From positions 3,743,925 through 3,807,924 of the forward strand of contig OY725488.1 in the NCBI GenBank assembly GCA_963281255.1: DNA of 64,000 nt, written 5' to 3'. Both the position numbers and the translations under genes were made by a program. The stretch comes from Aphrocallistes beatrix. Lineage: Eukaryota; Porifera; Hexactinellida; Sceptrulophora; Aphrocallistidae. The notes below the pieces were generated by a model, which saw only the letters and a program-made list of their open reading frames with translations, was not told the DNA's origin and searched no databases. Numbering within the stretch: position 1 is the stretch's first letter; every line of letters starts with the position of its first letter. This document shows, in pieces, positions 3,752 to 45,866 of the stretch.

Positions 3752-5770
3752 CATAGCCCTCTGTATATAAGGCTTATCATCTAAATCTCAAAAATGGACC
3801 AGGGATGCGGTCGATGATAGTTAAACTAATACATAATCTGCCTAAAATCATTAACGGCGTATATAAATACGGTGCCAAAGTACACAAATCCAGTGTTAAA
3901 ATTTAAATCCGTCATCACATGATTGAGCAATTGGCCGTTTAAGGTCGCTTCTAGTAAGTGTTTTTATTAGAATTTTTTTCGCACAGAACAGAGCAGGGAA
4001 TGGGCTAGATGCAAAAAAATTGATTTTAAAAATTAAATGTTGATACTTTTTCCAGCGTTGCTATGGAAACGCATTTTACACAGTTGAGGTCATATCTTGA
4101 AAACCGCAATAACTATGCATTCAAATTTGAACTTATTTGATAGCCAATAGACTACTTCCTATAAAGCCATAATATAATTTCCACGTCTAGATTCAATGGT
4201 TTACGAGTTATTCGACAATTTACTAAATGTGACCAAAGTAAAAATTGTCCAATAAATCCTACACCATTGAATTTAGACATAGAAATTATATTATCGCTTA
4301 ATAGGAAGTAGTGCATTGGCTATCAAATAAGATCAAAAATGAATGCATAGCTGTTTCGGTTTTCAAGATATGGGCTCAAATGAGCAAACTGCGTTTCCAT
4401 AGCAACGCTGGAATGTAGCAATATTCCATAAAAAATTAGTGGAAATTTTGCATCAGCCGATTCACAGCTCAGTTCGATGCGAAAGAATTTTTATAATAAA
4501 AACACTTAGAAGCGGCCTTAAACGGCCTCTGAAAATCACTAAATTTGTCCCAAATATGGCCTATTGTACAATCATTTGAATACCAATCTAATTTTAATAA
4601 TGGCATAGCCTACTGTATTTAAAGCCTCACAATTAATTGCGAATTTGAGACTAGGGATGCGGTAGAAGATGGTTGAAATAATACATATGCTGCCTTTATC
4701 ATTAACAAAGCACAATAGAGCTTAGGAATGTATTACCAGCATATATAAATATGGTGTCAAAGTACACATATCCGTTGTAAAAAGTAGATTAGTCACCATA
4801 TGGTGGCACAATAAGTTATATTTGTGATAAATTTAGTGATTTTTAGAGGTCGTTTAAGGGCATTTGTGTTTTTATTATAAAATTTTTCGCATAGAACTGA
4901 GATGTGAATGGGTTAATTAATACGAAAAATTTGGAATTTTCTCATGGAATGTTGCTACATTCTATTGTTGCTATGGAAACGTGTTTTGGTCAGTTGGGAT
5001 CATATCTTGAAAACAGCAAGAGCTAGACATTCAAATGCAGGTACATTTGATAGCGAATAGACTATTTCCTATTAATGATAGTATAATTTATTTGTCTAAA
5101 TTTAATGGATTATGAGTTATTAGACAATTTATCATATTGGTCACATTTGGTGATTCATCGAATATCTTGTAAACCATTGAATTCAAACGTAGAAATTATA
5201 TTATCGCATAGTAGGAAGTAGTCTATTCGCTATCAAATGGAATTACATTTGAATGTATAGCTCTTGCGGTTTTCAAGATATGACCCGAACTGACCAAAAC
5301 ACGTATTCATTGCAACACTGGAATGTAGCAACATTCCATGAAAAATTTTTCGTATTAACCTATTCACATCTCAGTTCTATGCAAAAAAATTTATAATAAA
5401 AACACTTAGAAGTGCCCTTAAACGACTTCTAAAAATCATTAAATTTGTCACAAATATAACCTATTGCGCGACCATATTGTGAGTAATCCAAATTTAACTA
5501 CGGATATGGGTACTTTGACACCATATTTATATATGCTGGTAATACTTTCCTAAGCTCTATTTGCTTTGTTAATGATTTAAGGCAGTCCATGAATTATTTC
5601 AACCATCTTCTACCGTCCCTAGTCCCAAATCCGCAAGTTACATTACAGTAGGCTATGACAATGGATATATGTACTTTGACATCGTATTTATATATGCTGG
5701 TAATAAATTCCGAAGCTCTATTTCCCGTCTTTAATGATTTAAGTAGATCATGTATTAGTTCAACCATTTT
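3752..5770. mobile_element. foldback element Y1 (interrupted, right end lost)
   Basis: The left end is CATAGCCCTCTGTATATAAG. The arm runs through the conserved words CTAGGGATGCGG, CCAGCATATATAAA, TTGCTATGGAAACG and ends near a central palindrome at about 4236 (TTTACGAGTTATTCGACAAT). The complementary arm follows to about 4602, is split by element Y2, and resumes at 5658 as ACAATGGATATATGTAC through TTCAACCATTTTCTTG. No coding capacity is seen. Left flank GTCTGCC lies inside R. Confidence 0.7.
4603..5657. mobile_element. foldback element Y2 nested in Y1
   Basis: A 1055-bp nearly palindromic element running from CATAGCCTACTGTATTTAAA to its complement ending CAGTAGGCTATG. The centre is near 5140. 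The 7 bases before it (ATAATGG) and after it (ACAATGG) match at 6 of 7 positions, as expected for a decayed 7-bp target duplication. The flanking sequence rejoins the two halves of the Y1 right arm. No open frame of note. Long arms (about 500 bp) make it a foldback MITE rather than an autonomous element. Confidence 0.75.
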
Positions 5771-6636
5771 CTTGTATATCTTCGTAAGGATCAGCAAATA
5801 TAATATTATGTACAGAAATCAAATGTTTTCTGAGAACACTCGTGCTGCGGCCACAACAGGCAAGGATTGTTACATTCGGACAAAACATTTGATCCTTTTG
5901 CCCATTCTCCAAAATGATTCCAAACAAGAGATTTGGATCTAGTAGCCATTTCAGTGTAATTAATAGTGTTATCTTGATTTCGTACTCCATAAAATTCGAA
6001 AGTTTTAATGTTTAGATGTACACTATTCAAATAGTTGACCTTGATCATTAAATATTCACCATAAAATTTCTAGGCAATTTGGAGTTGATTTAGTGGTCGC
6101 GTAATGTAGGTTCTGCCTAGTGCAGATTTAAAACAGGATCCGTCTGGTTTTGGGGTTAAGTTGCAAAAGGCGTACTCATGAAATTTAAAGTACACTTTCG
6201 CTAATCCGAACACCCAAAATAGAATAAGTTCGAGAATCCTCGCTGAAAAAGCAATAGTTACTAAATAATATCCTTAATATTCTAGCGATGCAAATTTAGT
6301 CTTAATCACCAAAATGTATCAACGTACTGCAATAAATATAAGTTTTTAGAAATCCATTACTTCAAGTAAATACATGAAACTTGTTATCGTTCGTAAAAGC
6401 ACCTGTAATAAACACATAAAAAGGTAAAACAGGTGATGGCCGTTATACACAGTTTTAGGGGCAGTAAGGGACTACAAACGGGTGGCCGCTGGTCGCGTTG
6501 AGAAGGTGACCGCTAGACACAGGTTCAATATTATGGAATTTCGGACGGGACTGTTCATTGGTGACCGCTATAGACAGGTGACCGTTATATACGTAGAGTG
6601 GACTTTATAGCAGGTTCGAATGTAGTATATATATAC
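5771..6636. other. AT-rich spacer with a decayed MITE at about 6430-6610
   Basis: Most of this stretch shows nothing recognisable; small open frames on both strands at 5655-6048 overlap and carry no motif. About 6430-6610 repeats the word GGTGACCGCTATAGACAG in variant forms (GGTGGCCGCTGG, GGTGACCGCTAGACAC, GGTGACCGTTATA), ending GAGTGGACTTTATA. That is typical of subterminal repeats of pogo/Tigger-like non-autonomous elements. A related scrap (TATAGCGATCACTTGTACATAACGGTCAC) is at about 30950-30980. Confidence 0.35.
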
Positions 6637-6659
6637 CAGGATTGCAACCGAAAAGTTGA

Positions 6660-6825
6660 TCATTCGGTTTAACCAAATAATATTAATTTGGTTAACCGAA
6701 TAATTTGGTCAACCAAATAATTTGGTCAACCGAATAATTTGGTCAACCGAATAATTTGGTCAACCAAATAATTTTGTCAACCGAATCATTTGGTCAACCG
6801 AATCATTTGGCCAATTAAATAATTT
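6660..6825 (+). repeat. 17-bp tandem array, AATTTGGTCAACCGAAT type
   Basis: Eight to nine units of about 17 bases (GGTCAACCGAATAATTT with A/G and A/C variants) lie in tandem. Each unit is itself imperfectly palindromic (ACCGAAT.ATTTGGT). The inverted partner array at about 8286-8350 has only three or four units. The array is the subterminal part of element K. Confidence 0.8.
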
Positions 6826-6940
6826 GCATGCTTTCCCAACACAATTACATGTTATTACATGAGGTGGTCCGAACACAAATAAATCTAATAGGCCTACTTA
6901 TACTTGATTATATTTTTCTAAAAATGTTTATATATTGAAT

Positions 6941-8244
6941 CATAGCCTACTCTAATAATGCCTCACAGTAAAATAACCAAGGATGCGGTAATAGCCGAAT
7001 GGATTAATACACGATTAGCCTAAAATCGTTAACCATGAAGAATAAGCATTAATAATGTATTACCAGCATATATAAACATGGTATCAAAGTACATAGATCC
7101 GTTGTCAAAATTTCGATTAGTCATCATATCATTGCGCAACAGGTCATTTTAAGCACTATTTTGCCAATTTTATATGCTTTTAAGCCTACTTCTAAATGTT
7201 ATTAAATAAATTTCAATATTTCATAACCCCGCAGTCATGCAAAAACAAAGAATCCATTGATGCAACCCTATCATTTTTTGATAAGGTATATGATACATTT
7301 TAAACACCAGGCATTTGCACATATTTTCTGTGACGTGTCATTTTTTCATACTATGCAATGCCATTCAGTCTCTATTGTTCAAAGTATAGCACTAAATACC
7401 AGAAGTTATTGTGAGATTATTAGAGATTTAAAATTTTTTGTTAAGGTAGAATTTTTGTGTAGAATTAAGATTTGTACGAGTTGATTTGAAAAATTTAGAA
7501 TTTTTGAACGGAATGTTATTACATTCCTAAGTTGCTATGGTAAAGCATTTTGATCAGTTTGAGCCATATCCTGCAAACTGTAAGAACTAGGTCTTCAAAT
7601 CTGATCGTGTTTGATAGGGAATTGGCTACTTCCTATTAGGTAATAATATAATTTAAACTTCTAAATTAACAGACTATAGAGTTATGCGACAATTTAGTGT
7701 TTTGGTCACATTCTTAAAATCAACCCATAACTCAAAACTCGCTGAATTTAGAAGTTCAAGTTGTATAATCACCAAATAGGGAATAGTCCATTGCCTATCA
7801 AACACGTTCAAATTTGAAGACCTAGTTACTACAGTTTGCACGAAATGGCCAAAACTGACCAAAATGCTTTACCATAGCAACGCAGGAATGTAACAACATT
7901 CCATTGAAAAATTCTAAATTTTTCAAATCAACTCTTACTAATCTTGGTTAAACACAAAAATCACACCTTAATACCATTTAGAAATAGGGGTAAAACAGCT
8001 TAGAATATCGCTAAAATTGTCCTTAGAATGACCTGTTGCGCAATGATATGATGACTATTCGAAATTTTTCCAACGGATATATGTACTTTTATACCATGTT
8101 TATATATGCTGGTAATACATTCTTAATGCCTATTCTGCATGGTTAACGATTTTAGGCTAATCGTGTATTAATCCATTCGGCTACTACTTCATCCTTAGTC
8201 CATGATTTTCAGTCTACTGTGAGGCATTATTTGAGTAGGCTATG
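6941..8244. mobile_element. foldback element Y3 with perfect 7-bp TSD
   Basis: Runs from CATAGCCTACTCTAATAATG to its complement ...GAGTAGGCTATG. It is flanked on both sides by ATTGAAT (6934-6940 and 8245-8251), a perfect 7-bp target duplication. The arms are about 600 bp and the centre lies near 7700 (ACTATAGAGTTATGCGACAA...). It belongs to the sub-type shared with Y4 (words TAATAGCCGAATGGATTAAT and TAAAATCGTTAACCATG). Non-coding. It sits inside element K. Confidence 0.85.
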
Positions 8245-8460
8245 ATTGAATATATAGTGATTGTGTTGGGAAAGCATGCAAATTATTTCGTTGACCAAAT
8301 TATTCGGTTGACCAAATTATTTGGTCTGACCATTATTCGGTTAAATTGGTATTTGGTTGAAGCGGTTTCAACCTTGATATATACATATATATAAATCTGT
8401 AGCGAATTGATCCATAAAACTGTCATGCATAGAAAGCTGACCTTTGGCATGTGGACGAAA

Positions 8461-10812
8461 ATGACAAATTAACAAATGTAACCAATATGAACTCGAAAGT
8501 CATTGCAACACTGGAATGTAGCAACATTCCAAGAAAAACAAATTTTTCGCATCAACCCATTAACGGCACACTTCTATGCGAAAAACTTTGTAATAAAAAC
8601 ACTTAGGAGTTCCCGTAAACAGACTTTGAAAATCACTAAATTTGTCACATATATAACCAATTGCGCAGTCATATGAAGACTAATCTAAATTTAAACAACG
8701 GATTTGGGTACTGTGACAATGGGTACTGTTTACTATATATGCTGGTAATAAATCCCTAATCTCTACTGTGCATGGGTAACAATTTAGGCTGCTAATGTAT
8801 TAGTTTAAGGATACCGCCCTCGAAAAATCTTGCCTGGCGTAAAAAAAAACTGCAAAATGTTTTATTGCTAATTTCATTGTATTACTGATCGGTCTACCAT
8901 CTGATAGCACTATTTGGACGGCATTTTTTTTTATTTTTTGCGAAATAACCCCCTAAAGTTTAGCGTTAAGAAAAATTGAAAAATTATTAGAGGATTTTAA
9001 CTCATTTACCAATTAGTTTTTAACTTATTTGATATTTTTTTAATGATATGAACCTTAACATTGTTTTAGCACCTTTGGAGATTATAAAACACAAAGATTT
9101 AAAATAATGGGCAAATAAAATCCAAACAAAATAGCTCTATAAGGGAGTTCATTTATATAATCCTCGGGAAATCGCAAGTTTGATCTCAGATATTTAGCGA
9201 TCACTGGGTCAGAAATAAAATTCTGATCGTTTCAAAAAAAAATTTGTTCGGATCCGACCATTTGTACTTGAGATATCGCATATTATAGGTAAAGTTGGGC
9301 CATAATATCCCTCTAAGGTCCCAAAAGAGGCCGATGTCATATCTTAAAAACTATTGTAGATATATAATATATTATATCCATAAATAAAAGGATATATGCG
9401 AAAATATATAGGTTCCTCGACCATTCCTTTGTCAAAAAATAAATAATTCTCGACTTATCATTGATTTAATTGTAATATAAATTATATGGATAACTTTGAA
9501 TCTATTAGAAAATGGCGAATCTAATCATTAAATATGTGTCCAAATTTAGCTATTATGCTAAATAGTGAATACAATTGCCGCTAATAATATGTACAGAAAA
9601 ATTGAAGAACTTTTGATAATTATTTTGAAAGTTCTGGCATTGGACCTCGCAGATTCGGTCAAAAACCCCCATTTAGGGTCCAAAAAGAGATATCTGTAAA
9701 TACAAGTCCAAATTCTTAGTTCTCACTTCCTAATATACTTTTTATGAGTGTACATATATGATTCTTTGATAATAATTGCACTACACCCCATGGAATGTTA
9801 AGTTTTTAGATTTTTGTCATATGATGACGTGGCATTTTTCGAAAATCCTAACTTCGAAACTAAAAGTCGTAGACTTTCGCTCTAACTTCCTAATATACTT
9901 TTTGGAAGCTTTTTATTCATTCTAAACTGATAGATTATACTTCGCAGTGCCAGGAATATGAAATATTATCCACAATTATCTCAAAATATTCGGAGTTAGG
10001 GGACTCAAGGAATTTTGTGGATTTTCAGGGTACTTTTGCTATTTTTGGTAACTATTTGGCATTAATATACCTAAATCAGCAGTATGGATGCGAATAAATG
10101 TCTGTGGATGCTTATGTGCATTATTAATAACTCATTTTACATTCTTCTTAACACCTAAACTTAAAATCTCTATATCTCGGGACTTTAAAATTTCAAAATT
10201 GACCGTCTTTCAGAATTATTTCTCAAATTTGGTTTGAGATAGAAGTTTGAAAATTTCAAGAGTTTTTTCATATCATTAGGCGATGAACGTAGGACCACCA
10301 TTTTTTGGATATATTCTAACTCGGTGATTTTATTCATGATTTTCCCCAAAAAACAGACATTTTGGGCCCTTTTTTGGCCCTTGTTTTTCGGACACCGATA
10401 AAATTTACAATATTTGTCATTTTAACTTTCTTCTGGTCCTATGAAGTTGCAAATATGGTAGACTATCTATGATTCGATTTTGGAAGCGTTTGATTCCTTG
10501 GTATGTCCTAAACAATTCATTGAGTGTCTAAATTTCTACCATTAAGATGTGCTAGCGGAAAATTTAAAAAACAGACTTTGAGACACTGTATCTCAAAATC
10601 TAGAAATGAGAATCAAAAACGGTTTGGAACATGCCTGTATTTCTTGATGGAGATACCTCCCCACGCTTAACATCTCTTATAGCTCTACTTTCATCGTATG
10701 CTGTAATGCAAATCATATGTTTTTTCGAGGGCGGTATCCTTAACCATCTTCTACCGCATCCCTAGTCCAAAATCCGCAAGTTATTGTGAGACCTTATATG
10801 TAGTAAGCTATT
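8461..10812. repeat. Y right-arm fragment carrying element X1
   Basis: 8490-8815 reads as the right arm of a Y1/Y2-type foldback (CACTGGAATGTAGCAACATTCC ... ATATATGCTGGTAATAAA ... GTATTAGTTT). The arm continues after X1 at 10744 (CCATCTTCTACCGCATCCCT, then AAATCCGCAAGTTA) and ends near 10812 in GTAGTAAGCTAT. The join across X1 reconstructs a normal Y arm, so X1 is a clean insertion. Confidence 0.65.
8819..10739 (+). mobile_element. element X1, 1.9-kb non-coding TIR element at TTAA
   Basis: Left end GGATACCGCCCTCGAAAAA and right end TTTTTTCGAGGGCGGTATCC are inverted repeats of about 20 bp. TTAA stands immediately outside each (8815-8818 and 10740-10743). The empty site can be inferred from the surrounding Y arm, where it would read GTATTAGTTTAACC. 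The interior has no open frame over 60 codons on either strand except AT-rich chance frames. TTAA duplications are characteristic of piggyBac-type elements, but the ends do not look like the usual CCY... piggyBac ends, and a TA duplication cannot be excluded. Confidence 0.75.
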
Positions 10813-11044
10813 TTCAAGCTATATTTTGGGGACGTCTGAATAATTTGGACAATTCCACAATCAGGAAATCCTGAAAGATCATGTATTTGAACTCATGGAA
10901 TATAGTGGATCGAAACAAGGGGTCACTCGATAGGGTTACTAGGAGGTTTGAGATTGGAATGTAGGTACTAAGGTACATTCCTGCGTCGTCAAGGAATATA
11001 TTCACCACGAATATGGACATGTGACCACTCAAATTTCTCAAAAT
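10813..11044. repeat. spacer shared with 16780-16920 in inverted form
   Basis: Words such as GGGGTCACTCGATAGGGTTACTAGGAGG and GGACAATTCCACA recur as complements at about 16800-16925 (CCTCCTAGTAACCCCATCAAGTGACCCC and TGTGGAATTGTCC). This is therefore another dispersed repeat, interrupted here by the X1/X2 insertions. No coding sequence. Confidence 0.5.
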
Positions 11045-11048
11045 TTAA

Positions 11049-12977
11049 GGATACCGCCCTCGAAAAACATCGCAAAACATTAAAAAAAATTGTGGAATTT
11101 TTTATTGTCAATTCCATCGGATTATTGAGTAGTCTACCATCTAATCGTACTTGTTGGACGGTATTTATTTTGATATTCTAGAACTGGGCACCTAAAGCTC
11201 AGGCGTACTAAAAATCGGAAAGTTATTCGTGATTTTGCATCGCATTCATCAATTATTTTCTAACTTATCTGATATTTTTTCAATTATACGAACCTCAAAA
11301 TGGTTTTGGCCCCTTTAAATATTATAAAACAGATGAATTTAAAAAAGAGGCACCTGAAATCCAATCAAAATTACCTTTATGAGGGACTTCATTTCTAAAA
11401 TGCTCGGGAAATGGCCGTTGTGATATTAGCTATTGTGTATAGAAAAAAATCCTGAACATTTTAAAAAAAAGTTTGTTCAGATCGGACCATTAGTTCGTAA
11501 GTTATAGTATATTGTAGGTAAAGTTCGGACATCAAACCACTCTATGGCCCCCAAAGTGCTCGATGTCAATGCTTAAAAACTATTGAAGATATATAATCTA
11601 TAATAATCTTAAATGAAAGGATATATATGATAATATATAGGTTCCTCAAACATCTCTTTGTTAAAAAGTAAATATTTCTTGACTAATCATCGTTTTTGTT
11701 GTAATACAAATTCTATGGAGAACTTTGAATATATTAGAAAATGGTGAATCTTGTCATGAAATAAGTTCCCAAAAGTAGCTATTATACTCAAAAAACAATG
11801 CAATAGTCACTAGCAATGTATACAGAAACTTTGAAGCACCCAACATGATTATTTTGGAAGTTCAAAGCATTTATCTCCAAATTTCGGTCAAAGCCCCCCC
11901 ATTTATGGTCCAAAAACAGATTCCTCCATATCTCGGGAAATATACACCAAAATTCTTAGCTCTCAATTCCTAATATACTTTTCAAGACGGTATATATCTG
12001 ATTCTTAAATAATAAATGTACTACATGGAATGGAATGCTAAGTTTCAAATTTTTATCACGTGATGACGTAGCATTTTTCGAAAATCCTAACTTGTAAACT
12101 AAAAGTCGTAGACTCTCGCTCTAACTTCCTAATATACTTTTTGGTAGCTCTTTATTCATTCTAAACCGATGAATTATACATTGTACTGCTAGGAATATGA
12201 TTTACATTCCCTAATTGGTTCAAAATATTCGGGGTTAGGGGCCTCAAGGTAATTTGTGAATTTTCAGTATAATTTTGCTATTTTCACCAAAATCTGTTGG
12301 AATACATCTAATTCATTAGTATACACGCGAATAAATGTCCATGGATGCTTTTATTTTTCGTTAATAGCTCATTTTACATCGTTCTTACCATCAAAACTTC
12401 AAATCCCTATATCTCGGGACTTTAAAATTCCAAAATTGACCGTCTTTCAAAAATTTTAACTCAAAATTGCTTTGAGATAAAGGTTTGAAAATTTCAGGAG
12501 TTGTTCCATATCATTAGGCGATGAGCGTAGGACCACTCAATTTTTGATATTTTATAAATTCGTGATTTTATTGCTGATTTGCAAAGAAAATCGGGCTTTT
12601 TTCGCCGTTTTTTGGCCCTTTTTATTCGGACACCGATAAAATTTACAATTTTTCAAATTTTAACTTTCTTTTGGTCCTATGAAGTGGCAAATATGATAGA
12701 CTATCTATGAATAAATTTTCGAAGCATTTGATCCAAACATGTGCTTTAAAAAAATTACAGAGTGCAGGAGGGCTTACCATTAAGATGTGCTAGGGAAAAA
12801 CGGAAAAAACCGACTTTGAGACGCTGTAATTCAAAAACTAGAAATGTGAACGAAAAACTGTTTGGCATGTCTCAATATTTTTTAATTGCACTACCTGCCC
12901 ACGCTTAACATCTTATATATCTCTATTCTTGATATATGCTGTAAGCCAAACCTATGGATTTTTCACGGGTGGTATCC
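11049..12977 (+). mobile_element. element X2, TTAA-flanked
   Basis: Same family and orientation as X1: left end GGATACCGCCCTCGAAAAAC, right end TTTTTCACGGGTGGTATCC, TTAA on both sides (11045-11048, 12978-12981). It is much closer to X3 than to X1. Its interior shares with the other copies the words CTAACTTCCTAATATACTTTT, TATATCTCGGGACTTTAAAAT and CATATCATTAGGCGATGA. A 67-codon frame at 12256-12459 is conserved in X3 (15556-15759), but it starts at a non-ATG codon and is low complexity, so I treat it as non-coding. Confidence 0.8.
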
Positions 12978-12981
12978 TTAA

Positions 12982-14368
12982 CGCTGAATATGAATAACCT
13001 TAGAGTATGTTATAGCTGGTTCAAACGAGATTGGAAGGGATGGGTATTTACACTGGTACTTATGTCCCAAAAATATTTCCAATGAACTTTGTGTAATATT
13101 AAACATATGTTTAGTAGTGTTTGAAATCCAGATAACAAAGCTACTAGTATTATCCGTCATCTGGATTGTAAATAGTCGGATTTCCGGATTTTAGGATATT
13201 TAGATATCTTGGCTGCAATTGGTAATATGCCAAGGTTTAAGAGAGTCACTGTCATTACATTATTTACAACTTCACTAATATCGATGCGTATCAATGATAT
13301 CAGTTATGATTTTTTGAAAATATGGCAAATAAGTTTAAATAGTCTCATCATTTTTCTCGATTCGGCGATAGCTAGCAAGTTGCAACGCTTGTGATGAAGA
13401 AATTTATTATCAACGTAGTTGTACAAGTGCAATGCGAAACCAATGTCGTTCATTGCATAATATTTGTAACTAAATAACCAAAATTTGTAACTAAGATAAG
13501 AAGCACGCGTAGGTTAGCTCAGTACTTCCTGACCTTTTCATTTGCACGGAACCTTTTCGAAATTGGAAACATTTCACGAAACCCTACTTCTTATTTATTG
13601 AATATCTAGTAGCACAAATTGCACTTGCAACACAAAACTAAAGATAACAAAAACTAATCAGTTAGTGACTTGTTTGTTGTTGTTTCTTCTTCATTATGAG
13701 ATCAAAGCGCGGATTATGATTGGAGAGAGCACATCGCTTGTAGTGTCTAAGTTTTGATTAAGGCTATTCCTTGTTTCCGTCTTTGTGTGTGAGATAAGAA
13801 AATCCTTTCTCATATGGATACGTGTTAGAAAAATACTGGTGTTTTGATTACCTTTTCGGAAAGTATTTTCATTTCACCTTTTTTCAAAACATGATTCGTA
13901 CTCTGCTCTCATTTCTTCACACAATTTCTGGAACATCCAATTTTTTTCCCTTTTCACCAGCTCTGATATAATCTTTCTTCAAATATTAAAGAGTGACACG
14001 TTTGCAGCAGAGCAATAGCTAACCAAATAACTTAGATACGGATAGAATATATTGACAGTCCTGAGTAGTGAGTATCCGGACAGGACTCAAAATTCTCCAA
14101 ACCCGGACAAATTCATCCCATTCCCGGACTCCTGACAAATGGCTCGAAACCCGGACTGTCCGGATCAAACCCGGACGTCTGGCAACCCTACTGCTAACAC
14201 ATATCTAAGTTTCACAATTGATGTAATCCCTCAAGGCAGTTCATATGATTCTTTATTATAAATTATGGCTTTACTGTCAACATAATATCAGATAACAATA
14301 TATACACTGAATCACTAAGTGGTGTTCAGGTTGCTATGTGTGCTAACAATTTTCAATACAGAATATTT
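12982..14368. other. no gene; scraps of degraded elements
   Basis: I see no exon with splice signals. 14060-14195 repeats ACCCGGAC/CCGGAC words and ends CGTCTGGCAACCCTACTG, a form typical of the terminus of a small TIR element (AGGGTTGCCAGACG read on the minus strand). The same terminus appears at 27174 (AGGATTGCCAGACGTCAGGA). I find no partner end nearby for either. Confidence 0.4.
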
Positions 14369-14372
14369 TTAA

Positions 14373-16263: not shown

Positions 16264-16267
16264 TTAA

Positions 16268-17335: not shown

Positions 17336-17455
17336 AATACCAGGGTTTTGAATAGTAATTGATTACATGGGTATTTGAGACCCTCGTCCCACCAATACTA
17401 TTAAGTCAGGAATTATTAAAAAGTCATGTTAGTAGAATGTGAATACAGTCGAAAT

Positions 17456-19354: not shown

Positions 19355-19725
19355 TTATTTCGTATTAACATACTCTTCTATTAATTCTTTTCCAAATCCA
19401 GTGAGTAGATTGTAAAGCTTTTCAATACATTCTATAGTTTTCAAATGACCAAATTTTTCACACCATTCCAAAAAGATATTTAATCCACCTATATCTTCCA
19501 TATCACCTTTTATAATCCACCACATGAATTCTGTAAAATGTCTCGTATTGATTAATAATGAAAAATTTCTGCTCAAAACAAGATGTCTACATATCCAATA
19601 GTGAAGGTGGATATACATTTCAGAATCTGGTTGAAATAAACTAGAGAGAGTATCAAGCACATAAATATATTCTTGCGAATTCAATAAACCTTCCAAGATT
19701 GATTTGTTATTGAAAATCTCTAATT
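19355..19725 (-). CDS. candidate terminal exon of an unknown host gene
   Basis: Minus-strand frame of about 122 codons after a good splice acceptor: a run of pyrimidines (TTTTTATTTTTCCACTTTC, then TTTTCTAG) ends just before 19725, and the protein then reads ELEIFNNKSILEGLLNSQ and so on to KELIEEYVNTK and a TAA. An AATAAA lies about 190 bases beyond the stop. The residues are mixed and helical-looking (EYIYVLDTLSSLF, TIECIEKLYNLLTGFG) with Trp/His/Cys, as in HEAT/ARM-type helical repeats, unlike the low-complexity chance frames elsewhere. I do not recognise the family. An upstream ATG at 19759 in the same frame lies in the pyrimidine tract and is probably not used. No upstream exon was identified in the window. 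Confidence 0.45.
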
Positions 19726-19974
19726 CTAGAAAAGAAAGTGGAAAAATAAAAAGGATCATTGTATACTACGATAATTATAAGCCTAAATATAGTATATAAA
19801 TGAATTAAAATTCGTTTTTAACCCTTGATATTTTATCTGATTCAATCTTTTAACTTTTGAGTTCTTCTTTGCAAAAGGAGGAATATAACAACATTGCAAT
19901 TTTCGAAATTCACTCTAGCCATAAAAAGTGACCCATGTTTTCTTCAACCAATCATGCTTAGAATTAACTATATC

Positions 19975-20585
19975 CATAGCCTACTGTATATAAGGCCTCA
20001 AAGTAACTTACGGATTTGGACTAGGGATGCGGTCGAAGATGGTAGAACTAATACATGAGCTGCCTTAAATCATTAACAGAGCACAATAGAGCTTAGGAAT
20101 GTATTACCAGCATATATAAATATGGTGTCAAAGTACCCATATCCGTAGTTAAATTTGGATTACTCACCATATGGTTGCGCAATAGGTTATATTTGTGAAA
20201 AATTTGGCGATTTTCAGAGGTCGTTTAAGGGCACTTCTAAGTGTTTTTATTATAAAGTTTTCCGCATAGAACTGAGATGTAAATGGGTTAAAACGAAAAA
20301 TTTTGGATTTTTCATGGAATGTTGCAACATTCCAGCGTTGCTATGGAAACGTTTTTTGTTAGTTGGGGTTATATCTCAAAACCCCGATAGCTGGACATTC
20401 TAATGTAATTCCATTTGATAGCCAATAGACTATTTCCTATTAAGTGATTATATAATTTCGACGTCTAAATTCAATGGTTTACGAGTTATTAGACAATTTA
20501 GCATTGGTCACATTTGGTCATTTGTCGAATATCTCGTAAACCATTGAATTTAGACGTCGAAATTATATTATCACTTAATAGGAAA
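19975..20585. mobile_element. foldback element Y5, truncated
   Basis: Starts CATAGCCTACTGTATATAAG and is collinear with Y2 through the TTGCTATGGAAACG word and the central ACGAGTTATTAGACAATTTA. It stops in the right arm at AATTATATTATCACTTAATAGGAA, where the GC module of repeat R begins (20586). The missing right arm means no target duplication can be read. The left flank is AACTATAT. Confidence 0.7.
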
Positions 20586-21200
20586 CAAGCGCACTTCGCT
20601 TGCTTGTGCTGCGAGGCTGGCGGACACAAAGTGTCCGCCGAATGCTCCCTTCGGTCGCCTGAGGGGACATTGGTTAATTATAAAGGGAGATAGCATCTCT
20701 AAATATGTCTATCTTAGTGTTAAAATCGATATCACTCGAAAAAACACCAAATTTGTCAATTTTTAAAATTTTGATGAGTAATGATGACGTCATAGCAAAG
20801 TGATGAGTCATCATTTCTTGATGATAGTTGCATCATGTGTGAGACGTGTTAGGATACAGATTCTATTAAAATTTCAGCCTTCTATCTCCTATAATGGCTG
20901 AGTTATGCCCGAATAACTGTGTTGCTTAACTTATAAAAATGTGATAATGACGTCATAATTCCATGATGAGTCGACATTTTGCTCTGAGCTCAGAACTTAC
21001 TGGAGCCATAGCTAAAAGACTTCCACATGCCATAAATCAGCTTTCTGCGAGAGGTGCATGGGTGACAAGGCATGTATCTACATGCTTTCAGACATACTTT
21101 ATAAATAGCGAAATTGCAGGGAAGCCTACAAGCCAAGAACGTTGGTCTTGCAAGTGTGCCTTCGATTATGCTAGTACTACTAAACGGCTGTTGTAAAAGA
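20586..21200 (-). repeat. repeat R copy 2
   Basis: Inverted relative to R7. From left: GC module (CGCTTGCTTGTGCTGCG, GCGGACAC-AAA-GTGTCCGC hairpin, CGGTCGCCTGA), the GGAGATAGCATCTCTAAATA word, ATCGATATCACTCGAAAAAA, two TGACGTCA palindromes (near 20786 and 20947), GATGAGTCATC, and the CTGGAGCCATAGCTAAAAGAC tail. An open frame at 20963-21196 is repeat sequence, not a gene. Confidence 0.8.
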
Positions 21201-21234
21201 AGATGTAACAAGGAGCACAATATTTCAGAAACAT

Positions 21235-21772
21235 CATTTAGTTTTCACTGCTGATGCTCAATTAGGGGAAAAAGACATCGTGGAATTGGAACAAGAGAAG
21301 AATGAATTTCTCAATAAGGTGCATCGACCATACCTTTAGAATGTCATCGATCATATTAATGTCAGAATGGAATATTCTGAACTCATTTCAGCAATGTCTG
21401 TTTTTGACCTTTGCCATCTCCTTTATTGTAGTAAATAGGAAGAATGGTCAGAATACGGGATGAAACAGATTAAGTAACACAAGGACTTTTATAGCGTTGA
21501 ACAAAGGGTCAATGTAGGAAGAATGATGCCATATCACAGCATGACATCTCTGCTAAAGAAACATAGTCAGAGTGGAAATTATGCTTAATTTGGTATAGTA
21601 CAAAGCTAGGTCCATACAATTTATACTTTCAAGACTGCTTGGGAGCGAAGAGATATATGTTGCGTTGCAAACTTAGATGTTATTGTAGAACTATTCCCAG
21701 TGACAACAGCCACAGCGGAATGGAGTTACAGCAACATGATATTTATAAAAACGAGGCTGCAGCCGATTGAGT
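21235..21772 (+). pseudogene. hAT transposase C-terminal remnant
   Basis: The plus strand reads VELEQEKNEFLNKVHRPYL at about 21281-21340, then NVIDHINVRMEYSELISAMS after a stop, and at 21640-21772 VIVELFPVTTATAEWSYSNM, then IFIKTRLQPIE and a stop. The last piece is the hAT dimerisation (hATC) signature, usually LP(V/A)(T/S)xxxxERxFSxxKxIKTxLR, here with the Glu-Arg changed to Glu-Trp. Several stops interrupt it and the N-terminus is absent. The element type resembles ZMYM/ZNF862-like hATs, which is inference only. Confidence 0.6.
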
Positions 21773-21774
21773 GA

Positions 21775-22019
21775 ATAGTGAATACACTTAACTATTGCAT
21801 GGGTATATGCATCGAAAATCCAATCGATCCTTTTTGCTTTTTCTGACTGATAAGCTATCTTTCCTTTCGGTTGTGTCACGAGGCCTACCCGGAATAGTGA
21901 GGTCTCTTACCGAGCAAGTCAGTCCATGTTTCCTCAGGATCTCACCAACGCTTTTTTGGCTACACCCAACGATTTAACTACCTCTCTCTGAGTATGGACG
22001 TTTTCCGATACAATATCAG
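21775..22019 (-). pseudogene. Tc1-like transposase N-terminal remnant (split by Harbinger)
   Basis: On the minus strand from 22015 down: SENVHTQREVVKSLGVAKK (first HTH), a broken RKHGLT segment, then GRPRDTTERKDSLSVRKSKK, the GRPR/TTxREDR linker of Tc1 transposases. Frameshifts and stops are present. The 5' part of this relic lies beyond the Harbinger insertion, at 25830-26095, ending in a Tc1-type terminus. Confidence 0.65.
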
Positions 22020-22180
22020 GAGCCGTATTCACTAAGATCTTAAGCACTAAGATCGATCTTAAATCAAGATCGATCTGAGTTAAGATCGATCTTAAGACCA
22101 AACTTAGAGCTATTCACTAAGAATTAAGATCGATCTTAAGATCGAACTTAAAAATAACGTTATGGTTAATATGATTAGAA
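22020..22180. repeat. left subterminal AAGATCGATCTTAAG cluster of Harbinger
   Basis: Dense self-complementary GATCGATCTTAAG words follow the left terminus. The matching cluster is at 25690-25825. Such words are candidates for binding by the element's Myb/SANT-like protein and transposase; that is inference from how the superfamily works. Confidence 0.7.
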
Positions 22181-23169
22181 TATAGCATTATACTAATCAA
22201 ATATAAAACTGCAGTATAAATTAGCAATGATAAGTAGTCATTTATTATTGATCTAGTAAAAATAAACAATATTTCTTCTCTTTGAACAAAATTGAGGCAA
22301 TTAATGTCAATATTAGGAGCAAAGAAGATTGATTAAATCACTCCTGTAAGACATAGCTTCTATCTATGTAGTTGTACCGCCTGGAATGCCTGGTGAGTCT
22401 CTTACAATATCTGTGGTGAAATATTGTTTCGATTTGATTGAATTCTATTATTAAAATTCAATGTTTTATGTGTGTAATCTATAATTATTCGACACTAGTC
22501 AATACCAAAGGAAGACAAGGAATCTTTATGGCAACTAATACATCTTTTGAATGTAATCAGGAATGTACATTGCAAAACTTATACTAGTGAAATACCAGTG
22601 TGATTTTACTTGCACTCCGATGAAATTTACTCGAGTATAATTAAGTTTATAATTTTAAAATACCCACAGACGGGATGGAAGTGTGCTTCCATTTTGCATT
22701 TTGATGACGCCATCGTCACCTTAGAGTGATGGTGATATCATAATATTGTAGAATGTTTAAAGTTGAACATTTCATCCGTCATATGTTTACTTCTATCTAT
22801 TTTCTAACTCGAGGTATCGAACTTTGAATATTTAATGAGATGATGACGAGATAAAAATTTTTGATCCGTCATTGTCACCTTGGATATCGGACCGATTAAT
22901 TGGATACTTTGATACTATCTAGTGGACTCCATTGCCTACCTTCTATAACAATATCAAGTTTCTACTATTTATACTTTGGCTAATACTAAGGTAAGTGACA
23001 AAATGTTGTATCATCATGCTGATTCAGCATAAATCAAAAATCGTATACAGAGGTGCACATTTCTATATCACTTTGCACTTCCTGTAAAAATTTCAAGACG
23101 ATATCTCTTAAACTCCGGTCAGGACACGAATTTCGGACGGCCGGCCGGAACATCCTCATTTTAGTACTG

Positions 23170-23236
23170 TGCATCCTATACTATTAGTATAGTAGCTAGT
23201 ATGCTACTATACTAATACTACGTATAGGAAGCACGC
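23170..23236. repeat. hairpin inside the Harbinger 5' region
   Basis: GTGCATCCTATACTATTAG, then TATAGTAGC, pairs with GCTACTATACTAATA, then CTACGTATAGGAAGCAC, across a 6-base loop, giving a stem of about 27 bp with small bulges. It lies about 65 bases upstream of the transposase ATG. It may be a tiny MITE relic or a local fold; no duplication is evident. Confidence 0.55.
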
Positions 23237-23300
23237 TAAAAATTATATGCATTTTTTCATTTGTTAATAATATTATCATCACTTTTCTCGGCTAATCTAA

Positions 23301-23343
23301 ATGGCAGGAATGATCCCATTGTTTTTAGCAGAAGATTCGGAAG

Positions 23344-23386
<43 letters not shown>

Positions 23387-24332
23387 TCTATGATTATCTA
23401 GAATTGATGCAGCGTTTCCGCTTCTCAAAGTCAGCAATATTAAAGATTACAGAGATAATAGTTGATCATCTTAATACAACTGATAGATCTCATGCTGCAC
23501 ATCCACATGTACTGGTTTGTGTGGCTCTACAGTTTTTTGCATCTGGTACTTTTTAGATTATTTGTGGTGATGGAATTCACGTGAGCCAACCCTCAGCTTG
23601 CAGGTAAATTAGAGCCGTTGCACTTGGACTGCAATCGGTATATTCAATGTATATTAGCATGCCCGGTTCTGCTATCAAGGCTACGATTTAGTCAGTTTTA
23701 TGAACTCGCGAACCTCCCCGATGTTCTTGGACTTGTAGATGGAACGCATATTCGCATTCAAAAGCCTCCTGAAAATGAGGCGGATTATGTAAACCGACAT
23801 TTCTACCACTCAATAAATGTTCAAGCTATCTGTCTACCTGATGGTAGATTTTCAGATGTATTGGAAAGATTTCGCGGTTCAATTCATGACTAACGTAACT
23901 GGAAGCTCTCTCAGGTCGGAACATATGTGGAGAATAACTTCTTGGCTGTTGAGCATTTATTAGGTAATAGTGGGAATATGATGAAATCCTATTTATTAAC
24001 TCAATGCCGGCAACCTGCTTCAAATGCCAAAGAGAATTATAATTACACCCACAAAAAAAACACGTGTATTAATCGAGCAAAACATTGGGAGATGGAAGTG
24101 AAGATTTCATTGCCTTCACGGCGAGATCAGGATGGCTCCAGATAAAGTCTGTACTATTATTCTTGACTGTGCTGTTCTTCATAATATGGCTATTGTTTGG
24201 AAGCACCCCATGTTGGAAGATTCCACTATTGACCATCATACAAGCATTATAGATAAACCGTTTGCATTTGAGGAAACATATTGCTGCAAAACACTACAGG
24301 GATCAGTTTGCCAATCATTTATTTTGAATTAA
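23301..24332 (+). pseudogene. HARBI1-like (DDE_Tnp_4) transposase, broken
   Basis: Starts MAGMIPLFLAEDSEES, then a (CT)n tract that expands the coding sequence, then ELMQRFRFSKSAIL, ALQFFASGTF, a stop, VSQPSACR (helix-turn-helix), a frameshift, VLGLVDGTHIRIQKPPENE (first catalytic Asp) and INVQAI. The second acidic motif, normally GDSGY, reads GNSGN at about 23953, so its Asp is lost. The third region reads TRVLIEQNIGRWK with the Glu intact, then a stop, then RMAPDKVCTIILDCAVLHNM. The DDE nuclease would cut element ends with help from its Myb-like partner. Several stops and frameshifts and a missing catalytic residue make it inactive. Confidence 0.85.
23345..23381 (+). repeat. (CT)n microsatellite in the transposase frame
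   Basis: About 18 CT dinucleotides follow the first 15 or so transposase codons (DSEE-SLSLS). The tract probably arose by slippage after the gene stopped being selected. Confidence 0.95.
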
Positions 24333-24619
24333 TCTAAATTTAGGAGCTATCAAAGAGCATAAGTTGTATCTCATACATTATATTAAACCAAACATATAAA
24401 CAACAAGTGTCTTCATATATTGTAACATGAAAAGCTCTCTAAAACAAAATATCAACACTGGATATGAGAAGTACAATAAATTGAACTCTATCGACGTTAA
24501 AATTTCTGCGTCATTTGGTATTACGAAAATAAATGGTGTCATTAGTGATTATGGCAAGTCTGCGTCCTCCCGTGTATATAAATTGCTGCTGAGTACTTGC
24601 ATTAACAATACCAAAACAA
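24333..24619. other. spacer between the two Harbinger genes
   Basis: AT-rich; a TATA-like TGTATATAAAT at about 24572, some 45 bases before the Myb-like ATG, could have been its promoter. Nothing else is recognised. Confidence 0.35.
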
Positions 24620-25357
24620 ATGGACAAATCCCGCAAAGCAAATTTGACCAGAGAAGAAGAGTGCAGTCTCATTAATGAAATTGAATCAGCATGTGAGATT
24701 TTGAGAGGCTCAGGAAATTCTGCAGACAAAAACAAAGGGAGGAAACAAATCTGGAGAGACATTGCAGCCAAACTCAACTCAGTGCATGGCAATGGCAGGG
24801 CTGCAGAGGATATTAGAAAAAAATGAACCAACCTAAAGCTAAATGCTAAGTCCAAAGTTGATGCAAGCTTTAGGGAAGCCAGAAAGACTGGAGGGGGTTA
24901 CAAACACTGATGGACAGGTAGAAGACGAGGATATGCAAATTCTATCAGTAGATAGAAGTATTTTTGCTGACTCTGCAGATCGCGTAACAGAGATGTTTCA
25001 AAACACCCCTGCTTTTAGTGGAATTTCAGGTGCTGCTGATCTTTTTCAAGCACCAGCAATAGCATCAATAGTATCAGTTGCAGGTCCCGATGAATTTGAA
25101 GGCACTCCAATTTTAGAGCCTCCAGAAATTGAAATCCCGACAACATATAAGGCATCCAAGAAAAGCGTAAGAGAAGGCGAACTGTTGATGAGAAAGATGA
25201 TTCGGTTGAACACTTGAAGGCTGCAGACTTACTTCCATTACAACAGGAAGTTTTGTTCCAACAGATGGCTGTATTCTCAGGACAGCTACAGTTGATAGAA
25301 GAACAGAGGGACTATTATAGATTGAAACGTCAGAGACTGTTGGAAAAATCATTGTAA
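24620..25357 (+). pseudogene. Harbinger Myb/SANT-like DNA-binding protein, broken
   Basis: Starts MDKSRKANLTREEECSLINE at an ATG. The first 70 residues form a trihelix/Myb-SANT domain (KGRKQIWRDIAAKLNSVHG, then AAEDIRKK). A TGA replaces the Trp expected after RKK, then TNLKLNAKSKVDASFREARK continues. A +1 shift leads to an acidic spacer (DGQVEDEDMQ...PEIEIPTTYK), and a second shift leads to the C-terminus DLLPLQQEVLFQQMAVFSG, ending RLKRQRLLEKSL and a stop. In living Harbingers this partner carries the transposase to the nucleus and ends. Two or three lesions make it inactive. Confidence 0.8.
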
Positions 25358-25829
25358 ATAGGAAAATAGGATCAAAGTGATTATTATCAGTCATGTGAAT
25401 CAATATATAAAGCCTGTCTCTATAATTATGCATGTTATAATGAGTGTAAGATTATATAATCAAAGAATGTATGTTTGTTTATTCATACAAATCCTAGAAG
25501 AATTTGCCAAGAATTATAGCATGTGATGGATGTTGCGATGTTACACACAATAAGAGAAACGTTTTAAAATATTTAAATTTTATTTGAAGTCTAATATCAA
25601 TCAAGGTAGATTCAATGTTCGATAGAAGTAAGTTTGAACAACAGTAATTAGTGAAAATCGAATCAATTACAATACTTAAGACACCTCCCTAGCTTGCTTA
25701 AAGTTCGGTCTTAAGTTCGGACTTAAGATCGAACTAAAATCTTAGTGAATACGACTTAAGATCGAACTTAAGACATAAGTACTAAGATCGATCTTAAGTT
25801 CGATCTTAAGTTTTTTGTGAATACGGCCC

Positions 25830-26098
25830 CAGGTTTGCAAGATTTTCAAAGGAAATTCGGGGTTTCGAAGGCACTGAAAATTCGATAAATACTGATAAAT
25901 TGTAATAAAGAGTACAAAAGTGAAAAAGGCAAATTATTTAAATATAATGAATGAAATATCTGTATTACGGTACTCGTATTACATAGCAAAATAAACAACG
26001 ATGTATATGATTTCACAAGAAAGAAACTATCTAGTGAGTCGAAACTATTAGACGTTTACTATTAGTATACATTTATTTTGAGCAATTCTTATTGACCG
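25830..26098 (-). repeat. 5' part of the Tc1 relic that hosts Harbinger
   Basis: Ends at about 26095 with the complement of ACAGTGCCGGTCAATAAGAA, a classic Tc1-type terminus (CAGTGCCGGTCA...). Between it and the Harbinger insertion is AT-rich 5' sequence. It joins the Tc1 HTH sequence at 21775-22019 when Harbinger is removed. Confidence 0.6.
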
Positions 26099-27650
26099 GC
26101 ACTGTATATATCACTACTTTGATCCAATCGTTCCCATAATATGATACTCAAATGAAGTGGCAAGTGGCACAAGGTAACATGTGCAAGCAATTAAGCTTTG
26201 GAAAGGATTAATCCACATAGGAAGCTTCTAAATTGATTAATTCGAGCGTGTAGATTTAAGAAGTGAAGTTTGAATTCATTGGCCTCCATAGATATACCCA
26301 ATTTATGATTACTTATGATGCAAAGCAATATGGTTTTCCAATACTTTTGGAAAAGCAGTGTATCTGGTTAAAAATCTAGAGGAAATACTGGAGCTATATA
26401 CAGGGTGCCATTTAAGTTCTGTTACAAGCTTTATTAGGTATTAAAATTTTAAATTTAAACAAATCTTAGTTATTATTGTTTTCAGATATTGTAATTTGAA
26501 TATTTTCAATAATTTCACCCTCCCCCCACCTGTAACAGTGTTTTGCATAGTGAATATTGTGAAGAAAAAATGTGTCATGGAATGCAGCAAAATGGTCTAC
26601 TGCTTCTATAAATTTTACGTGTAATACAAGTATATACTTTCATTGATAGAAATTTAAATAAACCTTGAAGTTTAAAGTTTCTGTATTTTGATAATTAAGT
26701 ATATATATATTTTGAAAAGCTTCCTCTTCAAATTTAACCCTATCTAGGGGTAGAGGTCAAAGTTTGATAGGTTAAGTACTTTCTTAGATCTTAAGTAACA
26801 TTTTACAAGAATTATATTCATTCAATCAAAAGGAATAAGCTTAAATCTGAAATAGGCCGGGAGGTTTTAAATGACAGAAATAGGACTCCTGGCACAATCT
26901 TTTTTTATTTTTCAAAAGTGGGGGATGGAAGATCGAGCGGAGTGAGCAACGAAGGAGAGGACATGGAGGCATACCCCTCAGGAAATTTCAAAATTCTTGG
27001 ATGCCGATATATATACTTATACTTTTACAGAAGATTTGTGTGCACATTTTGGAACCACGATTCCTCAATGTAAAATGTATAGACGCTAATGATCAATATA
27101 GTCTAGCTGCTAAGTGAGTTATTACGAAGGAATTGTGCCTTATATGATAAAAATTTTTGTAGATTGTAAGTACTAGGATTGCCAGACGTCAGGATTCTGA
27201 TATATTTCTCCAACATAATAGCAACACTTAGCTGTGTCTTACAACTTAGTAACTATTTCCCTGTTACGGACTTCAAGTTTGTCTATTTGGACATCCATTC
27301 TCAAAGAAATAACAAGTAATTATTTTTAAACGGTAGTTTTCCAAATAATTAAATTATTTTGTGTTCTTGTCGTTTAAACTTAATTTATGGTCAAATAGTA
27401 TGATCTAACTTGTTTTCAGTAAACCCTGATGAAAGATAATATAAATACGTATAAGAAAATCTGAGATGGCACTATATCCAAATAGTATCTTCCTTAGGAT
27501 GTTCTATCTATCCATCAAAATCCATGCTTTTATAATAAAATGCACAATATTTTCACTTGCAGGTATATACAACACTAATAAAAAGGTGTGTGAGTATAAG
27601 TATAATTCTTTAGGATAGGTTTGCTATCAGAAATACGCAAAAGAGGTACA
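26099..27650. other. no gene; one solo transposon end at 26403
   Basis: At about 26402 a terminus TACAGGGTGCCATTTAAGTT, then CTGTTACAAGC, reads rightward. Its close complement (GCTTGTAACAGAACTTATGT, then GTCACCCTGTA) ends at about 52791. The two are 26 kb apart and surrounded by unrelated DNA, so I take them as separate truncated copies of one family ('W'). At 27174 AGGATTGCCAGACGTCAGGA repeats the terminus seen at 14195. The rest is AT-rich with nothing recognised. Confidence 0.4.
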
Positions 27651-27654
27651 TTCG

Positions 27655-28135
27655 ATAGGCAAATAAACTAGTAACGTTAATTTTTAGCTATTTGGGGTGG
27701 TTTAATATCAGCTAATAATACATTATCATGACCTAAAATATACCGGTTCCGAATATTGGTTAAAACAGTCGGGATTTGGGAACATTAATAATTTTAAGTA
27801 CGAAAGCTTGTCTCAACTGTGTTCACCAATATCTCGGATCCAGTAGATTTAGGTCATTAAATGTATTATTAGCATACTATATAAACCCCCAAATATCGCA
27901 AAAAATAACGCTATTCTAGTTTCTATCATAAGTATGCCTTTTGCAAATTTAAGCCCCAAACTAGAACAGATCTCATTATAAGTCTGCAAAGGCGGAAATT
28001 AACTTGCACGAGCACTAAATCAAATAAAATAAAATTTTTATGGCAAATATTCGTTAATCAATGGAAACTATTTGAAGCGTGTGCATCTAAAGATTCAAAC
28101 TTCAAATATTTGGAGCACCCTAATATATATATAGT
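27655..28135. repeat. foldback repeat V, copy 1
   Basis: The word TTTGGGGTGGTTTAATATCAG with TACCGGTTCCGAATATTGGT is matched in inverted form by ACCAATATCTCGGATCCAGT and CTATATAAACCCCCAAATAT. The palindrome is centred near 27790 with arms of about 90 bp. Beyond it the sequence stays parallel to 52850-53290 (shared GTGTGCATCTAAAGATTCAA). Confidence 0.6.
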
Positions 28136-28149
28136 ATATGTCCCGAATG

Positions 28150-29600
28150 ATTGAAATAACTGAAAGGCACAGAAAACGATTTTTGGGATGCGGAAGTCTT
28201 TTGGCTAAGTATATAATAAGTTCTGACATCAGACTAAAATGTCGACTAATCATGGAATTATGACGTCATTGTCACCTTTTTTATAATTAGAAATTTCCGT
28301 TTTTACCATAACAGCCATTTTAAGTGATGGAAGGCTGAAATTTTAATAAAATGTGTATATTAATATATCTCACATATGATACAACTTTCATTAAAAAATG
28401 ATTACTCATCACTCTGTTATGATGTCATCGTTACGCATCAAAATTTTAAAAATTGACAAATTTGGTGATTTTTCGTGTACTATCGATTATAACAGTAGGA
28501 CAGACCATAGCCTTCTCTAATAATGCCTCACAGTAGACTGAAAATCATGGACTAGGGATGAAGTAATAGCCGAATGGATTATACACGATTAGCCTGAAAT
28601 CGTTAACCATGCAGAATAGGCATTAAGAATGTATTACCAGCATATATAAACATGATATCAAAGTACATATATCCGTTGGAAAAATTTCGATTAGTCACCA
28701 TATCATTGCGCAACAGGTCATTCTAAGGACAATTTTAGCGATTTTAAAAGCTGTTTTAACTCTATTTCTAAATGGTATTAAGGTGTGATTTTTGTGTAGA
28801 ACCAAGATTAGTACGAGTTGATTTGGAAAATTTAGAATTTTTCAATGGAATGTTGTTACATTCCTGCGTTGCTATAGTAAAGCATTTTGGTCAGTTTTGG
28901 CCATTTCGTGCAAACTGTAGTAGCTGATCTTCAAATTCGATCGTGTTTGATAGGCAATGGCCTACTTCCTATTATGTGTTAATACAACTTGAACTTCAAA
29001 ATTCAACGAGTTTTGAGTTATGGGTTGTTTTAAGAATGTGACCAAAACACTAAATTGTCTCATAACTCTATAGTCTGTGAATTTAGAAGTTTAAATTGTA
29101 TTATTAACTAATAGGAAGTATCCAATTGTCTATCAAATAAAATCAAATTTGAAGACCTAGTTCTTACAGTTTGCAGGATATGGCCCAAACTGACCAAAAT
29201 GCACTACCATAGCAACGCAGGAATGTAGCAACATTCCATTGAAAAATTCCAAATTTTTCAAATCAACTCGTACTAATCTTGGTTCTACACAAAAATCACA
29301 CCTCAATATCATTTAGAAATAGGGTTAAAACAGCTTAGAAAATTGCCAAAATCGTGCTTAAAATGACCTGTTGCCGCAATGATATGATGACGAATCGAAA
29401 TTTTGACAACGGATATATGTTATTTGATGCCATGTTTATATATGCTGGTAAAACATTCTTAATGCCTATCCTACATGGTTGACGACTTTAGGCTAATCGT
29501 GTATTAATCCATTCGGCTATTACCGCATCCTTGGTTATTTTACTGTGAGGCATTATTAGAGTAGGCTATGGACAGACATATTTATAGCGCGCTTGTAGTA
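28150..29600 (+). repeat. repeat R copy 3, split by Y4
   Basis: Reads GGCACAGAAAACGATTTTTG, the TATGACGTCATTG palindrome near 28260, GATGAATAC...ATGATTACTCATCACTC, then TTTTTCGTG and ATCGATTATAACAGTAGGAC up to the Y4 insertion at 28506. After Y4 only GACAGACATATTTATAGCGCGCTTG remains. Confidence 0.7.
28506..29570. mobile_element. foldback element Y4 with perfect 7-bp TSD
   Basis: A 1065-bp near-palindrome from CATAGCCTTCTCTAATAATG to ...TTAGAGTAGGCTATG. GACAGAC flanks it at 28499-28505 and 29571-29577. The centre is near 29040 (AACGAGTTTTGAGTTATGGG). It is the Y3 sub-type and non-coding. The host R sequence at the target (GTAGGACAGACGTATT in intact copies) confirms the duplication. Confidence 0.88.

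Positions 29601-45670: not shown

Positions 45671-45866
<196 letters not shown>

Follow-up and report, generated by a model that had tools for sequence, protein, structure and literature searches.

Y copies in the window

The window, a stretch of 64,000 nucleotides of Aphrocallistes beatrix DNA (C1:3743925-3807924, from a 28-contig genome of 100.5 Mb), contains several copies of a foldback repeat family, Y, and two P-like elements, A and B. An earlier interpretation of this stretch, made from its letters alone (hereafter the sequence-only reading), held Y to be the non-autonomous partner of the THAP elements A and B. We find that Y copies are palindromic, gene-less and flanked by 7-bp duplications, and that their ends are of the type found in another THAP element, P6, on contig C6. 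Judging by these ends, Y is very probably a foldback-shaped non-autonomous element of the P superfamily, moved in trans by a P6-type THAP/RNase H transposase and not by that of the A/B family.

The Y copies at 3752, 4604, 6941 and 28506 begin with CATAGC, as had been claimed, and so does a fifth, Y5, at 19975 (Table 1). CATAGC by itself is of little diagnostic value, with 34 occurrences across the window against 21.8 expected. It was said to be followed by a TAxxxTAAGGC-like stretch, and this part of the description needs narrowing: the quoted terminus, CATAGCCTACTGTATATAAGGC, is exact only in Y5 and has two mismatches at 3752 and 4604, while Y3 and Y4 differ, carrying CATAGCCTACTCTAATAATGCC or close variants. 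The latter two represent a diverged subfamily, Yb, being 83-86% alike and each about 70% similar to the main family, Ya. A single pattern covering both quoted ends (those of Y and of the P-like elements) had no match in the window, because the spacings of the two ends differ.

When the sequences flanking Y2 are joined, they align through the junction with the arms of other Y copies. Five empty-site probes were taken from the window: alignments spanning the junction were obtained for Y2 and A, and none for Y3, Y4 and B in the genome sequence searched. In an empty-site set of 36 probes, at least several aligned. A repeated ATTTGGTCAACCGAATAA-like stretch flanks Y3 on both sides (6660-6830 and 8280-8340).

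Table 1. Y copies, Y fragments and P-like elements in the window (window coordinates)
Feature	Position	Strand	Remarks
Y1, older Ya copy, left part	3752-4603	+	Interrupted at 4604 by Y2; Ya matches 3752-3852 and 3933-4595
Y2, Ya copy, 1,054 bp	4604-5657	+	Inserted in Y1; duplication 6/7
Y1, continuation past Y2	5658-5764	+	Matched by Ya 904-1011; right end missing
Y3, Yb subfamily, 1,304 bp	6941-8244	+	Duplication ATTGAAT, 7/7
Ya fragment	8501-8808	+	79% to Ya 706-1010
Ya right-end fragment	10747-10811	+	88% to Ya 1014-1078
Y5, Ya left part (Ya 1-615)	19975-20584	+	Terminus exactly CATAGCCTACTGTATATAAGGC; right part absent (Ya 616-1079)
GGACTAGGGATG block, from position 44 of Y5	20018-20029	+	Common to P6-type and other THAP ends; candidate transposase-binding block
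Y4, Yb subfamily, 1,065 bp	28506-29570	+	Duplication GACAGAC, 7/7
Ya right-end fragment	30212-30347	+	79% to Ya 939-1074
Element A, P-like	41708-45606	+	85-bp inverted repeats at 95%; duplication GTGAGGT, 7/7; internal mariner
Element B, second copy of A's family, opposite orientation	45898-48568	-	Duplication GATAATA, 7/7
Ya right-end fragment	57280-57416	+	78% to Ya 940-1079

Y is an abundant, gene-less palindrome

We searched the genome for CATAGCCTACTGTATATAAGGC with up to 3 mismatches, using the reversed pattern as a control. This gave 1,878 Y-type ends (943 on the plus and 935 on the minus strand), and the reversed pattern matched nowhere. We estimate about 940 copy-equivalents of 1,080 bp, or roughly 1% of the genome, a figure obtained by halving the number of ends, so that it does not count intact copies. 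When full-length matches were sought, 40 of 2,302 candidates were scored, and the best were about 1,080 bp long and hit both strands, as expected for a palindrome.

Full copies consist of two arms of about 540 bp, and one of them (L045) is 95% self-complementary along its entire 1,079 bp. Across 31 copies of 1,030-1,090 bp, the identity between the two arms of a copy ranged from 75.5 to 98.7% (mean 92.2%), and the longest stop-to-stop frame from 53 to 163 amino acids (85 in 13 of the 31). None of the 100 listed Y ends, out of the 1,878, had a THAP or RNase H match within 4.5 kb, either inside or outside. The long palindromic arms and the lack of coding capacity described from the window are confirmed in the copies sampled.

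Arms of different copies are on average 87.5% identical, compared with 92.2% within a copy. Homogenisation between the arms of one copy was considered, and since a copy's own arm was its best match in just 8 of 31 copies, there is no strong case for within-copy conversion. Larger Y-ended stretches were considered as possible autonomous copies and rejected: pairs of ends 5.4 and 8.1 kb apart, with perfect 7-bp duplications, belong to Y copies into which other transposons have gone, and a 5.8-kb stretch (L039) has no frame longer than 109 amino acids. By eye, one Y copy with a perfect 7-bp duplication (L041) holds the frame of a Gypsy-like long terminal repeat element, and another (L042) holds integrase- and OTU-like frames. 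Two insertions of Y into Y (near 752 in L042 and near 1501 in L081) appear by eye to have hit one arm position to within a few bases, at about ACTA.TTCCTATTAAG, as if this were a preferred site.

Y copies are flanked by 7-bp duplications

Target duplications were scored for 56 pairings of Y ends, drawn from the first listed places on contigs C1 and C2, the best full-length matches and the window, so that young copies are over-represented. In the sample of loci taken from Y ends, 14 of 30 had a single Y end within the stretch read and hence were unscored; L039 and L040 subsequently took in four of those ends, and another belongs to the window's Y5. An exact 7-bp duplication was present in 42 of the 56 pairings and a 6/7 match in a further nine, giving at most one mismatch in 51, and no pairing had an exact duplication of 6, 8, 9, 10 or 11 bp. 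In a control with mismatched flanks, the rate of exact 7-bp matches was 0.0006. The duplications are enriched for G at the first and C at the last position (36/84, p 6e-15), whereas a preference for T at the second and A at the sixth is not significant against the AT-rich flanks (39/84, p 0.14).

The P-like elements have the same duplication length. Of the nine with both ends placed, eight have 7/7 duplications (those on C6, C15 and C12, the elements C15b and C10b, the C2 element described below, A and B) and the one on C10 has 6/7; a tenth, on C3, yielded no pair of ends. The duplications that the sequence-only reading had given for Y2, Y3 and Y4, and the length it took Y and the P-like elements to have in common, were borne out; across the 56 pairings the mode is 7 bp.

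The Y terminus matches P6

P6 (C6:2264022-2267663) is 3,642 bp long, with CATAGCCTACTATACATAAGGCCTCACAGTAA at both termini, inverted repeats of 193 bp at 97% and the duplication AATTAGC (7/7). A search with 601 of its residues found a THAP domain (1.9e-13) and a TNP-like RNase H domain (1.9e-16). A majority consensus was built from 86 Y ends, and its first 60 bases were compared with the ends of such elements and with 2000 null sequences. The nulls came from the window, where Y copies are present, and are inflated for this reason; they were kept since this works against the claim. The consensus is identical to the P6 end at 53 of 60 positions without gaps (score 46), a score that none of the 2000 nulls reached (maximum 28). 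Identity over the same 60 positions is 51 for both P15 and P10, 43 for C15b, 42 for C12 and 40 for C10b, and the Ya terminus scores 46 against P6, 41 against P15, 40 against P10, 25 against C15b, 23 against C12 and 11.5 against C10b.

BLAST of Ya against P6 aligned both ends (Ya 1-69 at 87% and 997-1079 at 83%, E about 1e-19). The same two stretches aligned to a close relative of P6 on C16 (88% and 84%), and P15 matched at 87.5% over 56 bp. More distant relatives of P6 lie on C1, C15 and C10, those on C15 and C10 having similar ends. Y shows two marks of P-superfamily membership, ends in common with a THAP and TNP-like RNase H element and a duplication of 7 or 8 bp; a third would be action of the transposase on those ends.

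These observations also bear on whether Y could be a foldback element of another superfamily (for instance a Mutator-like or Foldback element) whose ends have converged on CATAGC. The palindromic shape does resemble that of Foldback elements. However, the duplication is 7 bp, and a THAP/RNase H element has the same base as Y at 53 of the 60 terminal positions, although the ends compared were all those of THAP elements. P6-type ends, moreover, bracket transposase genes: a 32-mer probe allowing one mismatch found 47 such ends genome-wide (18 exact and 29 with one mismatch; none with the reversed control), of which 22 have a THAP or RNase H match within 4.5 kb inside and two outside, with 0.4 of 47 expected from a random control on 18 contigs. 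We regard such a convergence as extremely improbable.

Elements A and B have their own relative

The sequence-only reading had proposed that one transposase moves both Y and the THAP elements of the window. The two do have features in common: a CATAGC start, 7-bp duplications and a GGAC(C/T)A.GGAT block at 44-47 bp. The start and the block amount to a distant terminal plan common to both. The identity beyond this is weak and gapped, however. The Y consensus matches the A/B end at 9 of 24 positions ungapped and 41 of 60 gapped (score 10.5), and 44 of the 2000 nulls do as well.

The coding content of A and B is confined to remnants of a THAP protein; in B, THAP-like and following coding remnants at 46291-46710 gave weak tblastn matches (E 0.08-0.33). 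Their 24-bp end occurs 237 times genome-wide, and 100 listed A ends included seven with a THAP or RNase H match within 4.5 kb inside and four outside. An identical pair of these ends, with the duplication GATTGGG (7/7), encloses THAP, TNP-like RNase H and TNP-like GTP-binding domains at C2:2384350-2388439. This element is the natural source of transposase for A and B. Its protein is 47% identical to that of P6 over the best-aligned part, and BLAST of Y against the element gave nothing significant (best E 0.16). It is consequently very unlikely that the A/B transposase moves Y as well; the proposal had the superfamily right, but the partner it named is probably wrong. Since the P6 terminus is far closer (53/60), a P6-type transposase is the better candidate.

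The mariner inside A, named by eye, spans 43122-44458 with a 378-amino-acid open frame and 30-bp inverted ends, and the gap of about 290 bp between A and B (45607-45897) is mostly an AAAT tandem array. Open frames at 35289-36970 and 55867-56709 resemble, by eye, hAT and mariner transposases.

A terminal block common to THAP elements

Of 21 termini compared, 20, with A and B among them, carry a GGAC(C/T)AGGGATG-like block at 44-47 bp when up to 3 mismatches are allowed, as against 361 of 20,000 random 70-mers. The 21 termini include near-identical members of one family and so are not independent. C10b is the terminus without the block. Among four ends read separately and omitted from this comparison, the block was absent by eye in L113 and present in L115, L117 and L118. 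In the one Y copy scanned, a GGACTAGGGATG-like block occurs once per arm and is a candidate binding site.

We also inspected 16 stretches upstream of further THAP genes. Eight had an exact CAT(A/G)GCCTACT, three had it with one or two changes, one was more degenerate and four had none; the nearest to Y were on C16 and C1, and the opposite strands of the 16 held no end of this type. Contig C5 (33,681 bases) is missing from the match lists because it is small. Five THAP matches with a 245-amino-acid open frame and near-identical scores (C2:4368346, C4:1968347, C8:2696692, C11:2903335 and C14:2775098) are possibly a recently amplified THAP-bearing repeat. Inspection of a COX1 gene on C28 shows agreement with the invertebrate mitochondrial code, in which AGA is read as Ser, ATA as Met and TGA as Trp.

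The recurrence of this terminal plan in most families compared raises the possibility that Y has no private partner, and that several THAP families (P6, P15/C10, C1, C15b/C12) cross-mobilise it, with Ya and Yb using different ones. The Ya scores are 46, 41 and 40 for P6, P15 and P10 and 25 for C15b, and Yb scores about equally for P6 and C15b. On the other hand, the order for Ya is clear, with P6 and its C16 relative matching furthest inward (69-83 bp), and cross-mobilisation is not visible from sequence. We consider this possible though rather unlikely; it is compatible with movement by a P6-type transposase and does not exclude it.

How Y may be mobilised

If Y is mobilised by a P6-type transposase, as the ends suggest, the THAP domain would bind within the terminal 60-80 bp common to Y and P6. 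Analogy with the Galileo transposase site and the internal sites of P elements makes the block at 44-47 bp the candidate site. The transposase would then pair two ends, cut, and insert with a 7-bp stagger, a reaction modelled on that of P elements, leaving the 7-bp duplications that we observe. The rest of each Y arm was probably added through inverted duplication around other DNA.

Several points weigh against this interpretation. Five of the 56 pairings have no duplication (at most three matching bases), although two of these pair with the start of a neighbouring copy. Identity between Y and P6 ends after 69-83 bp, and 15 P-element bodies or part-bodies gave no BLAST match to the inner 450 bp or so of each arm. 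In the P6 copy that was read, a single in-frame stop separates parts of 616 and 345 codons; the 345-codon part matched no Pfam family, and a PDB search with P6 returned THAP-domain structures only and no P transposase. No fully intact P6-type copy was found among the elements read: the two nearest matches with long frames (683 and 990 codons) are 69% identical to P6 and have CATGGC ends. The scores of Yb (Y3 and Y4) hardly separate P6 from the CATGGC family C15b (29-33 vs 25-32), and the right end of Y3 slightly favours C15b. A family matching better than P6 may exist, as the comparison covers the ends of about 19 transposase-bearing elements and THAP matches number at least 150, and the block common to 20 of 21 termini may be superfamily-wide rather than the mark of a private pairing.

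It is perhaps an even call whether a P-type transposase has amplified a near-perfect 1.08-kb palindrome independently of Galileo in flies, with arms that do not derive from the master element beyond the terminal 60-80 bp. If so, a terminal block would be sufficient for mobilisation, and the palindromic form would have arisen without long master arms. In any case, Y and P6 make a probable P-superfamily pair of master and hitchhiker in which copies are numerous and the 7-bp signature is clean, which also bears on why palindromic P derivatives recur. The same genome holds several related THAP families whose ends resemble one another to differing degrees, a natural series for asking which terminal bases a THAP transposase needs.

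Comparison with known systems

Galileo, a member of the P superfamily in Drosophila, is foldback-like with mostly 7-bp duplications and a THAP transposase, and many of its copies consist almost solely of inverted arms (PMC3688188, PMC3573991, PMC4168063). Such copies, especially those made of two terminal inverted repeats (TIRs), resemble Y in having long inverted arms without genes and 7-bp duplications. The TIRs of Galileo are long, however, at 0.5-1.2 kb (PMC3688188, PMC3573991, PMC4168063), whereas P6 has no long arms but a 193-bp inverted repeat, of which 69-83 bp are common with Y. This contrast is softened by two features of Galileo: only some 40 bp at the extremities are conserved from species to species, and in D. 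mojavensis it is copies without transposase that have the longest TIRs (PMC3688188, PMC3573991, PMC4168063). The Galileo transposase site lies about 70 bp from the end (PMC3688188). Of its target, GTANTAC, Y duplications are enriched for G1/C7 but not for T2/A6. A further mark of Galileo is the presence of several binding sites for the transposase within the long arms; in the Y copy scanned, the candidate block occurs once per arm.

A second parallel is found in Anopheles gambiae, where high-copy, gene-less P miniature inverted-repeat transposable elements (P-MITEs) share roughly 100 terminal bp, and the length of their duplications, with a P family of the same genome (PMC1562414). Like Y, they combine a terminal part from a P master with an unrelated centre. 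They differ in having 8-bp duplications and, as their names imply, lengths of 205-675 bp (PMC1562414), against about 1.08 kb and a full-length palindrome in Y; P-MITEs are usually under 600 bp, while the 31 Y copies measured 1,030-1,090 bp.

The P element of Drosophila resembles P6 in its THAP and RNase H transposase and combines a terminal repeat with an internal binding site (PMC7776569), but its duplications are 8 bp and its terminal repeats 31 bp, compared with 7 bp and 193 bp here. Elements of the Foldback and Tetris type are like Y in their long inverted arms and hairpin shape (Tetris: PMC4079207). The pair had been thought undescribed, and we found no account of this particular Y/P6 pair in the literature searched, though one may be filed under the host's name. 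Its kind is familiar, as gene-less hitchhikers and their masters are known from flies and mosquitoes, and Y and P6 are most likely a new example of that kind.

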